Assembly: GCF_000243135.2 (NCBI RefSeq)
Contig: NC_019903.1
Location: 3,138,001-3,202,000 of the forward strand
DNA length: 64,000 nt
Direction: 5' to 3'
From: Desulfitobacterium dichloroeliminans LMG P-21439
Lineage (GTDB): Bacteria > Bacillota > Desulfitobacteriia > Desulfitobacteriales > Desulfitobacteriaceae
Part shown: one piece after another, positions 21,748 to 26,465 of the stretch
Position numbering within the stretch: the stretch's first letter is position 1
Layout of the letters: each line of letters begins with the position of its first letter
Made by a program: the position numbers and the translations under genes
The notes under the pieces: model-generated
Databases searched by the model: none
What the model saw: the letters and a program-made list of their open reading frames with translations, nothing else
What the model was told of the DNA's origin: nothing

Positions 21748-22035
21748 ATGGCAAAGCAACTTCTTTCTGGAAAGTTAACTAGTAAAGGCCAACTCACTAT
21801 CCCAGTCGAACTAAGAACCCTTTTAAACATCAAAGAAGGAGACCGATTGGCTTTTGTCTTAGATGAAAATGATAGAATTATTGAAGTTCAGCCCAAAACA
21901 AAGAAATCCATCCGCGAAGTCATGGGAGTATTGAAATCCACCATGAACGTTGACGCAGATGAAGCAATTGGTGTGGCTAGGGCGGAACGGGCAAAAGAAA
22001 TTTCAGCCAAATCGAAGGAGTTAAGGGATGAATAA
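21748..22035 (+). CDS. AbrB/MazE-type antitoxin (VapB-like)
   Basis: 95 aa. N-terminal swapped-hairpin AbrB domain (about residues 8-50, KLTSKGQLTIPVELRTLLNI) that binds DNA, C-terminal helical tail (about 55-95) that would wrap the toxin. ATG with AAGAGGAGG. It overlaps the PIN toxin by 8 bases. The palindrome over its promoter is the expected autorepression site of the VapBC complex. Confidence 0.9.
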   Translation: MAKQLLSGKLTSKGQLTIPVELRTLLNIKEGDRLAFVLDENDRIIEVQPKTKKSIREVMGVLKSTMNVDADEAIGVARAERAKEISAKSKELRDE

Positions 22036-22438
22036 GGCAATGATAGTCGACACTAACATTCTTATTCGTTTATTTACGAAGGATGATGACCCCCAGATTG
22101 AGCAATTAGTTCGGCTTATGGAACAGGGCGATATAGTATTTCACGTGCTATCCATTGTTCTAATAGAAGCCTATTGGGTCTTACACAAGGTATATAACTT
22201 CAACAAGGAAACGATATTGCGAGTCTTTGAGGACTTTATCGAAGCTGACGGAATTGAGCTTGATGAGGAAGGTTTAGTACAACGTATCCTTGCTCGTTTC
22301 CGAGGGGTAAATGTTGATTTCGTTGATATTTACTTAGCTGAAAAATCGAGAAGCTCAAGGTTGCCGGTATTAACTTGGAATGCTAAGGATTTTAGAAAGT
22401 TAGAATGTGAGTTTTACAGACCGCAAGATTTAGTATAA
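22028..22438 (+). CDS. PIN-domain ribonuclease toxin (VapC-like)
   Basis: 136 aa PIN-domain protein. Acidic active-site residues are visible: Asp in MIVDTNILIR (about residue 8), Glu in LIEAYWVLH (about 47), Asp in VDFVDIYLAEKS (about 98). VapC toxins cut tRNA or rRNA. Second gene of a two-gene toxin-antitoxin unit, followed by a strong bidirectional terminator. Confidence 0.9.
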   Translation: MNKAMIVDTNILIRLFTKDDDPQIEQLVRLMEQGDIVFHVLSIVLIEAYWVLHKVYNFNKETILRVFEDFIEADGIELDEEGLVQRILARFRGVNVDFVDIYLAEKSRSSRLPVLTWNAKDFRKLECEFYRPQDLV

Positions 22439-24019: not shown

Positions 24020-24820
24020 TTACTCCTCATTCTCCTCCAGTTCCTCAAATCCATACACCGCACAGCCAATTGCCCCATTAAATTGGGGTTGCTTAGGTAC
24101 GACGATTTCTTTCCCCGTTCCCTCTCGCAAGAGCTCCCGAATCGCTTTGCTGTGGGCCACTCCTCCCGTAAATACGATGACTTCGCTAGTATAATTACGA
24201 AGAAGGGGTAGAATGCGCTTAACAATGGTCTCATTGACCCCCGCAGCAAGTCGCGACAAAGGTTGCCCTTCCACAATCTTACCGATCAATTCGCTCTCCC
24301 CAAACACCGCACAGGTCGAGTTCAATATCACAGGGTCCACCGAATGCTCCCCTAATTCCTCGAGGGTCATCCCTATGACATGAGCCATGTTCTCCAGATA
24401 TCGTCCCGAAGAAGCCGCACATTTATCATTAGTCTGAAAATCCAACATCCGCCCTTTTCTAACCTTAATAATCTTGCTGTCCTGACCACCAAGATCCACC
24501 AGGGTGAAGTCCTCCAGCCCCGTCTGAAATATCGCTCCCTTAACATGGGCTTTCAATTCCGGAATCGTCTCCCCCCCCGCTACCTCCAGGGTATTACGCC
24601 CATAACCCGTCGAGATAATACAATCCACCTCAGGTAACCCCAAGGCCTTAAAGTCAACAGCTAGCTTACCCTGAACCTTTCGCCCATATTCCCGATAAAA
24701 TTTAATCGTATCCAACCGGTCCAAACGCCTAATCTGCGGAAGCTCCCCAGCTAAAGAACACTCCATCACCGCAATCTTAACGCTTCGACTCCCCAAATCA
24801 ATCCCACATACCAAAGCCAT
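24020..24820 (-). CDS. HgdC/BcrA-family ATPase activator
   Basis: 266 aa ASKHA-fold ATPase of the BadF/BadG/BcrA/HgdC group. Phosphate-1 loop CGIDLGSRSVK (about residues 5-15), LVDLGGQDSKII, the cluster Cys in NDKCAASSGRYLE and STCAVFGESE (two Cys per subunit, [4Fe-4S] bridging the dimer), and FTGGVAHSKAI. Such proteins inject an electron into a 2-hydroxyacyl-CoA dehydratase-type partner with ATP hydrolysis. The partner-type gene lies upstream at 25.5 kb, beyond a repeat tract. Its first ~25 bases recur in that tract. Confidence 0.88.
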   Translation of the reverse strand: MALVCGIDLGSRSVKIAVMECSLAGELPQIRRLDRLDTIKFYREYGRKVQGKLAVDFKALGLPEVDCIISTGYGRNTLEVAGGETIPELKAHVKGAIFQTGLEDFTLVDLGGQDSKIIKVRKGRMLDFQTNDKCAASSGRYLENMAHVIGMTLEELGEHSVDPVILNSTCAVFGESELIGKIVEGQPLSRLAAGVNETIVKRILPLLRNYTSEVIVFTGGVAHSKAIRELLREGTGKEIVVPKQPQFNGAIGCAVYGFEELEENEE

Positions 24821-24847
24821 TCAAACATTACTCCCCTATATTTTTTA

Positions 24848-25252
24848 CCATAATCACCACTACTACGACTGCCACTGCTACTCCTACTGCCACTAATGCT
24901 GCCACAACCAAAACTACTAGCTTTAGCTGGTAGAAAATCTAAATCAAAGCATCCTAGGATCTTGCTCTACCGAGATCAATCCCACACACCAAAACCAACT
25001 ACTGCCACTGCTACTCCTACTGCCACTGCTACTCCTACTGCCACTAATGCTGCCACAACCAAAACTACTAGCTTTAGCTGGTAGAAAATCTAAATCAAAG
25101 CATCCTAGGATTTTGCCCTACGGAGATCAATCCCACATATCAAAACCAACTACTGATACCACCACTGCTACTACTCCTGCCGCCACTAATGCTGCCACAA
25201 CCAAACTACTAGCTTTAGCTGGTAGAAAATCTAAATCAAAGCATCCTAGGAT
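24848..25252. repeat. Three-unit tandem repeat containing copies of a gene start
   Basis: Three units of about 151, 151 and 142 bp. Each has a (GCCACTGCTACTCCTACT)-like minisatellite, a conserved ~62-bp core (24898-24960, 25049-25111, 25191-25252) and, in the first two junctions, a degenerate copy of the first ~25 bases of the HgdC-type gene (CCCACAyA near 24981 and 25132). The copies are followed by stops and are not coding. Confidence 0.85.
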
Positions 25253-25292
25253 TTTGCTTTACGGAGGTGAACGACTTCTAAGCGAGCAGGAA

Positions 25293-25417
25293 ACAAAACT
25301 TCGCGAAAAGTACGGCGTGGAGACGGGTTGGAAACAGGACGTTTCCAACAGCCCACTGAGCAGGAGCGAATTGGGCTGGCACCCGTCGGAACAGAGTACT
25401 TGAGCGATTAGTTTTGT
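25293..25417. other. Multibranched structured element, candidate ncRNA or mobile palindrome
   Basis: Closing stem ACAAAACT (25293-25300) with AGTTTTGT (25410-25417), continued by TCGC/GCGA (25301-25304 with 25404-25407) and AAGTAC/GTACTT (25308-25313 with 25396-25401). Inside: GACGGGT/ACCCGTC (25322-25328 with 25381-25387), hairpin TGGAAAC/GTTTCCA (25329-25335 with 25341-25347) and hairpin CAGCCCA/TGGGCTG (25349-25355 with 25372-25378). It sits just downstream of the HgdB-type gene. Family not recognised. Confidence 0.6.
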
Positions 25418-25457
25418 CCGCGCAGCTTACCGAGTGAACCCCGTAAAGCAAAATCCC

Positions 25458-26465
25458 CTACTCACGCAGCATCTGAATGAAAGACTCCAACCTCATTTTA
25501 CTCCGGGCATCTATACCTGTGGGATTCTCACCCTCAAGATTCATAATAGGATATTCGAGTCGTTTGCGCACGATCAAATCTTCAATCTGGCGATAACAGA
25601 AGCTCTGAGTGTAGTGGATGATGCCATCCAATTCTCTTCTTTCCGCTTCCCGAGCCACATCCTCAATTCGTCCAAAAACATTATAGGGGTAGGTATAAAG
25701 TTGGTATTGCTCCACAATATCTTCCGTCGCAAAAGGCATACTAAATTGCCTTTGCACTTCATTAAAAACAACCCTTGCCCCATGGTCCTCTAAAAAATTA
25801 TAGAGATCCGGCATAATGGGCGGAACACCCATAAAGCCAATCCGCAGTTCTCTTTTCCTACGCCCTTTAAACTTGCTACTCAGAGGCTCCCGCCCCTTAG
25901 CCTCCGCAATGAATTGCTCCATTTCCTGAGCAAAGCCTTCCGGATTTCCGTTAAAATCGGAACAAGAGACCAAGCAAAGGTGATTTTCAAAACCACTGAC
26001 CTTATTCTCCTCCCAAGTAAGTCGGTCAATTTCCCAAGCAAGCTTACGGACCTCGTCCAAGCGCCGCTTTTGCTCCAGCACTTTATCCCATGAGGTTCCT
26101 AAGGCTGTAATCAACTTCTCCAGTTGCAGCACAAGCATGTCCCGATCTCGATCATAGGGAAAAGCAAAAGGAATAATCCCGATGCCATGCTCTGACCAAG
26201 TCTCCATCAAAGCATGGGTATTGCTACAATCCCCTTGGGTTACAGCCACAATCTTCTTAATCTCCGGATTCTGTAAAGCCGTAGCATACAAACCCTTAAT
26301 CCACCCACAAACACTCCGCGGATACCCCGCTAGCTCCGCTTCTTCAATCCGGCGCATGGCTTCTACAGGATCCGAAATAAATATATTATTTAGATCCACC
26401 GGGGTATCCCCAGCCGCATAAATGACCTCAACAGGCACCGTTGTCGTTAAACCAATTTTACTCAT
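25458..26465 (-). CDS. HgdB/BcrC-family 2-hydroxyacyl-CoA dehydratase-like protein
   Basis: 335 aa single-subunit member of the HGD-D family. Cys at RSVCGWIKG, TQGDCSNTH, LCLVSCSDF and QSFCYRQ can serve as cluster ligands. A true dehydratase would need two different subunits and a CoA-substrate operon; only one is present. With an HgdC-type activator downstream, the arrangement resembles the YjiM/YjiL pair and the double-cubane-cluster protein system, which performs ATP-driven low-potential reductions. That assignment is inference. Confidence 0.75.
   Translation of the reverse strand: MSKIGLTTTVPVEVIYAAGDTPVDLNNIFISDPVEAMRRIEEAELAGYPRSVCGWIKGLYATALQNPEIKKIVAVTQGDCSNTHALMETWSEHGIGIIPFAFPYDRDRDMLVLQLEKLITALGTSWDKVLEQKRRLDEVRKLAWEIDRLTWEENKVSGFENHLCLVSCSDFNGNPEGFAQEMEQFIAEAKGREPLSSKFKGRRKRELRIGFMGVPPIMPDLYNFLEDHGARVVFNEVQRQFSMPFATEDIVEQYQLYTYPYNVFGRIEDVAREAERRELDGIIHYTQSFCYRQIEDLIVRKRLEYPIMNLEGENPTGIDARSKMRLESFIQMLRE

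Follow-up and report, generated by a model that had tools for sequence, protein, structure and literature searches.

Positions 25293-25417 of the window (the whole 64,000-nucleotide stretch of DNA analysed here) form the inner part of a 212-nt intergenic repeat, which is mobile, belongs to a multi-copy family whose fold is conserved by coordinated changes, and carries conserved GGA tips on two side hairpins. The reading that we favour, tentatively and with slightly less than even confidence, is that of a mobile repeat spreading CsrA-type hairpins, the dispersed copies of which would serve as CsrA-binding decoys or tethers.

Extent and fold of the element

For structural characterization of the element, both strands of 25293-25417 were folded and compared with shuffled sequences. 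The + strand gave a minimum free energy of -56 kcal/mol (z -6.67), which none of 200 shuffles equalled, and the - strand -52 kcal/mol (z -7.45), and the arrangement proposed in the initial annotation, an interrupted closing stem around a second stem and two side hairpins, was recovered in the folds of both strands. The stretch is thus a real folded unit, but its limits had been drawn too narrowly: the pairing extends further out, within a whole element of 25245-25456, and a fold of 25240-25465 reached -98.7 kcal/mol (z -7.5). The outer pairing is a perfect 16-bp stem between GGATTTTGCTTTACGG (25249-25264) and CCGTAAAGCAAAATCC (25441-25456). Features of the element and its surroundings are listed below.

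25245-25456, + strand: whole element, copy c1, termed type A, 212 nt; limits from blastn and the covariance-model match, fold z about -7.5
25249-25264, + strand: left arm of the outer stem (terminal inverted repeat), 100% complementary to 25441-25456
25441-25456, + strand: right arm of the outer stem; the neighbouring gene's stop codon begins 2 nt beyond its end
25293-25417, + strand: inner part, the stretch first annotated, from the fold
25319-25321, + strand: left side of a 3x3 internal loop GGA/GGA (tandem G.A type), G-N-A/G-N-A in most of 90 copies; partner 25388-25390
25388-25390, + strand: right side of the same internal loop; partner 25319-25321
25328-25348, + strand: side hairpin 1 from the fold, loop AGGAC at 25336-25340, CsrA-type ACA-GGA-CGU tip; GGA in 88 of 89 copies
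25349-25378, + strand: side hairpin 2 from the fold, tip GC-AGGA-GC with GGA at 25363-25365; GGA in 88 of 89 copies
25458-26465, - strand: HGD-D gene (2-hydroxyglutaryl-CoA dehydratase D-component family; Pfam PF06050, E 8e-42), its 3' end abutting the element
24020-24820, - strand: BcrAD_BadFG ATPase family gene (activator; Pfam PF01869, E 2e-34)
about 24840-25457, no strand assigned: 151-nt tandem repeats plus the element, absent in two sister species, where the orthologous site is a gap of 47-55 nt

Copies, spread and covariation

BLASTN placed the element at about 20 sites in this genome, so that the single occurrence which would have counted against a structured family does not apply. A covariance model, R1, was built from nine copies of the family. 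It found 21 matches here; two sister species had 62 and 87, and two other genera 22 and 15. Genomes with matches numbered 32 of the 73 in the order, all belonging to the same bacterial family. The distant holders, identified by an exact pattern scan, were Desulfosporosinus and one Clostridiales MAG. In these distant relatives the stems and end sequences are largely different, and the layout and GGA tips are kept.

Covariation in the stems, by which the proposed structure stood or fell, proved strong. Among 90 aligned copies 96.9% of cells were paired, and double changes were seen in 56 of 64 pairs (477 cells), as against 15-21 pairs and 30-52 cells in slid controls; none of 500 shuffles matched this level. 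The 90-copy alignment was fitted to the R1 model, and its counts therefore lean toward structure; RNAalifold on the nine unfitted copies gave double changes in 24 of 64 pairs. Paired positions also co-vary when copies that share a site in different species are compared, with four double changes, one G-U and no breaks at one such site. Same-site orthology was assigned from similar downstream flanks, and conversion or re-insertion at shared sites is possible because a copy's closest relative is often a copy other than its orthologue. The earlier description as a structured RNA or large cruciform holds as regards an element under pairing selection; it missed the size, the multi-copy mobility and the GGA loops.

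Copies vary in their architecture, some having extra hairpins in the tip of hairpin 2 and others lacking the core. At L116:5157-5422, L110:6904-7167 and L101:3886-4154, inserts of about 50 nt lie within a hairpin tip; on the opposite strand these inserts have the same GGA-type hairpins, which looks as though a small element had inserted into another's loop. At L099:4906-5719, three copies follow one another on one strand at intervals of about 300 nt, a tandem duplication of element plus spacer. Tandem copies on a single strand occur in Desulfosporosinus.

Mobility and arrangement

The window locus measures 47-55 nt in two sister species versus about 645 nt in this genome. The site of copy c3 is empty in both sister species; copy c8 is absent from one of them, and the other has an opposite-orientation element beside a partner termed type B. 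Each of the three sites tested thus is empty in one or both sister species, which shows that the elements move. They are non-coding and have inverted terminal repeats and insertion polymorphism, traits that they share with MITEs. Insertion ends were not clean, and no clean target-site duplication was seen at the sites read.

A second element nearby usually lies to the left and inverted, giving a head-to-head pair. The type B partner (about 185 nt) is weakly related to type A, scoring 32-39 bits with R1, and in all 45 close cases it lay inverted on the left side of type A; A-A neighbours on opposite strands are likewise head to head. Examples of type B include L149:1290-1471 and L069:1778-1960, with more than 40 further copies. 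No GGA-tipped side hairpins were seen by eye in the type B copies read. In genome G003, the 5-kb interval separating two inverted copies was read for an autonomous transposon; this was rejected, as its only ORFs resembled, by eye, glycosyltransferase and polysaccharide-transport genes. A phage or virus origin was likewise set aside, as the Desulfosporosinus-type pattern had no match in viral contigs, and a replication-strand bias as for single-strand transposons was not significant. The literature hits listed for repeats in these genera contained nothing relevant.

Distances to genes were taken from ORFs rather than curated gene calls. Depending on set and gene direction, the right end lies a median of 36-86 nt from the nearest gene and the left end 319-414 nt. 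The right end is a median of 44-51 nt from the 3' end of a converging gene, and in about one-third of copies it faces a gene start. Copies were not biased toward the sense orientation of genes: 41 were antisense and 32 sense, and in the mostly distant set the counts were 27 and 10.

Strand and transcription signals

The folded + strand is favoured on account of its stability, its conserved G-N-A loops and a modest G-U excess. It is the more stable strand in 87 of 89 copies, by a mean of 8.9 kcal/mol, copies not being independent. G-N-A is kept on both sides of the internal loop in most of the 90 copies, a sheared G.A pattern found on the + strand only, and wobble counts lean modestly the same way (G-U 85 versus A-C 52). 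The conserved G.A-type internal loops favour the + strand as the selected strand, whether as RNA or as single-stranded DNA.

As initially proposed, the element follows an operon gene: the stop codon of HGD-D on the - strand begins 2 nt past it, and the element sits between two - strand genes. Since both neighbours are read on the - strand, operon read-through would yield the complement, which lacks GGA here. A promoter just upstream was sought by a scan for sigma-70-like sites, which were neither enriched upstream of the copies nor found in the window stretch. No terminator-like site was found at the element.

Comparison with TwoAYGGAY and Bacillaceae-1

The window copy itself had no Rfam match, which disposed of a riboswitch or other known RNA at this site; TwoAYGGAY (RF01731) in particular gave no match, whether the gathering score or an E of up to 5 was applied, the copy falling short of the 43-bit cut-off. 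With strict filters there was also no RF01731 match in genomes G000 (the host), G002 and G003. The initial view that the element matches no RNA family thus holds for the window copy, but not for relatives found with R1: at R1 hit positions in Desulfosporosinus, RF01731 matched over its full length with 50.3 and 45.0 bits (both L118) and 44.8 bits (L115), above the cut-off, and another Desulfosporosinus match reached 42.9 bits, just under it. These scores identify the element as kin to TwoAYGGAY.

Both have two GGA-tipped side hairpins in one rod and tandem-GA internal loops, the latter described for TwoAYGGAY in PMC4333381. The element differs in its longer outer stems, in loops that are mostly AGGAC/AGGA and not AYGGAY, and in the lack of an RF01731 match for the window copy and its genus. 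It is also a mobile high-copy repeat, often head to head, a feature that the available part of PMC4333381 does not mention for TwoAYGGAY. RF01731 was present in 53 of 398 genomes, with several copies per genome in many other genera. At least one such copy, from another genus (L221), has a long, nearly perfect outer inverted repeat of about 30 bp beyond the Rfam model. The RF01731 model may therefore represent just the central part of something larger.

One relative matched Bacillaceae-1 (RF01690), a 67-nt family, on the opposite strand with a sub-threshold 31.2 bits (cut-off 35). An opposite-strand match is expected because, according to PMC4333381, the reverse complement of Bacillaceae-1 carries CsrA motifs. 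The 2014 report gives a motif-based prediction of CsrA binding for TwoAYGGAY and for the reverse complement of Bacillaceae-1, with validation then in progress (PMC4333381); no experimental test of the TwoAYGGAY prediction was found in the literature searched. Near Desulfosporosinus elements, sub-threshold Guanidine-I riboswitch matches were noted at L106:7417-7510 and L118:6938-7035 (50.5 and 47.4 bits; cut-off 63).

GGA tips and CsrA

GGA occurs in both side-hairpin loops in 87 of 89 close copies and in 42 of 48 mostly distant copies, a set to which the window copy and a few close copies also belong. Spacing between the two is near-constant, mostly 25-28 nt, and the second GGA of the window copy lies 26 nt from the first. 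SELEX gave RUACARGGAUGU as the CsrA consensus, its GGA lying in a hairpin loop (PMC7652899), and several distant copies read ACAAGGATGT, which fits this consensus. Paired GGA in hairpin loops is the pattern of Csr/Rsm-type RNAs, and the element shares it with the CsrB/RsmZ-type sRNAs that act as CsrA sponges. Those sRNAs hold many GGA tips in one RNA. The element differs in having two tips, in being dispersed and mobile, and in that no dedicated promoter was found for it.

The host encodes csrA (genome G000, ORF L245 1294-1584), beside an ORF that by eye resembles FliW. Counts of csrA were read by hand from genome lists. It was present in 51 of 53 RF01731-positive versus 248 of 345 negative genomes (p 2.6e-5, uncorrected for phylogeny), and in 40 of 42 versus 163 of 228 at genus level (p 4e-4); within the window's bacterial family it was found in 30 of 32 versus 5 of 13 genomes. 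Both misses (G243 and G435) are draft assemblies with a completeness of 92-94%, and csrA is present in other members of their family. The association may reflect motility in general.

Taken together as a mechanism, copies of the repeat settle in intergenic sites, frequently in head-to-head pairs, and a single strand folds into a long rod with two GGA-tipped side hairpins. In the transcribed + strand, the two tips, 26-28 nt apart, would be held by one CsrA dimer, and dispersed copies would therefore act as decoys or tethers. Transcription of the + strand, binding of CsrA and any influence on regulation are inferred. Several observations speak against the CsrA reading: no sigma-70-like promoter was found, the GGA strand is antisense to the operon in the window, there is no sense bias, the wobble bias is modest, very stable stems are said to disfavour CsrA binding (PMC7652899), and type B appears by eye to lack GGA tips.

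CsrA-sequestering RNAs have been described mainly for Gammaproteobacteria, and the known CsrA antagonist of Bacillus subtilis is the protein FliW (PMC7652899). With its many copies and strong covariation in culturable bacteria, together with csrA co-occurrence across 398 genomes and evidence of mobile units, the present family makes the CsrA idea and the spread of structured repeats directly testable. A broader claim, which we regard as rather unlikely, is that transposable repeats have provided an entire bacterial family with CsrA-binding hairpin RNAs, dozens of them in each genome; these would be the first Csr-type decoys outside Gammaproteobacteria and the first to spread as mobile DNA in head-to-head pairs.

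Alternative readings

The absence of sigma-70-like promoter sites, the antisense position in the operon and the lack of sense bias make a purely DNA-level mobile hairpin a serious rival, one that is possible although we are inclined to doubt it. The element would be MITE- or REPIN-like, a transposase encoded elsewhere would recognise the folded strand, GGA tips included, and the RNA would have no role. Insertion polymorphism between sister species, the left-inverted type B partner in every detected case, and double changes that are mostly Watson-Crick agree with this. REPINs and MITEs are likewise short non-coding intergenic mobile repeats, with inverted pairs. However, the terminal sequences of the subfamilies are very different, which would not be expected of ends recognised by a single transposase, and the element keeps its structure while its ends diverge, which REPINs and MITEs do not share. 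No partner transposase was found, the one 5-kb A(-)...A(+) interval read (in G003) holding no transposase-like ORF. The units are 212 nt and branched, much larger than REP palindromes, and are not the pair of 20-40 bp REP palindromes that defines a REPIN. A DNA-only element also leaves the CsrA-type tips and the csrA association unexplained.

A 3'-end element in the style of BIME/REP, sitting after genes and protecting or ending mRNAs, would suit the short distance from the right end to converging 3' ends and the window copy that abuts a stop codon. It is improbable, given that about one-third of right ends face a gene start, that the element has no terminator-like site and that copy c8 lies beyond an apparent existing terminator. 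Least probable is a structured RNA whose function has nothing to do with CsrA: the strand-specific conserved loops would fit, and the CsrA link is a prediction, but CsrA is indicated by the sequence of the tips, by their near-constant spacing and by the co-occurrence of csrA.

Sequences flanking the element

The 151-nt tandem repeats occupy window positions 24855-25250, between the BcrAD_BadFG ATPase gene and the element. They combine pieces resembling the start of the neighbouring gene and the left end of the element, and contain abundant CTACTGCCACTGC units. Elsewhere in the window, at 21748-22438, two small adjoining ORFs resemble by eye an AbrB-type antitoxin and PIN-domain toxin pair.
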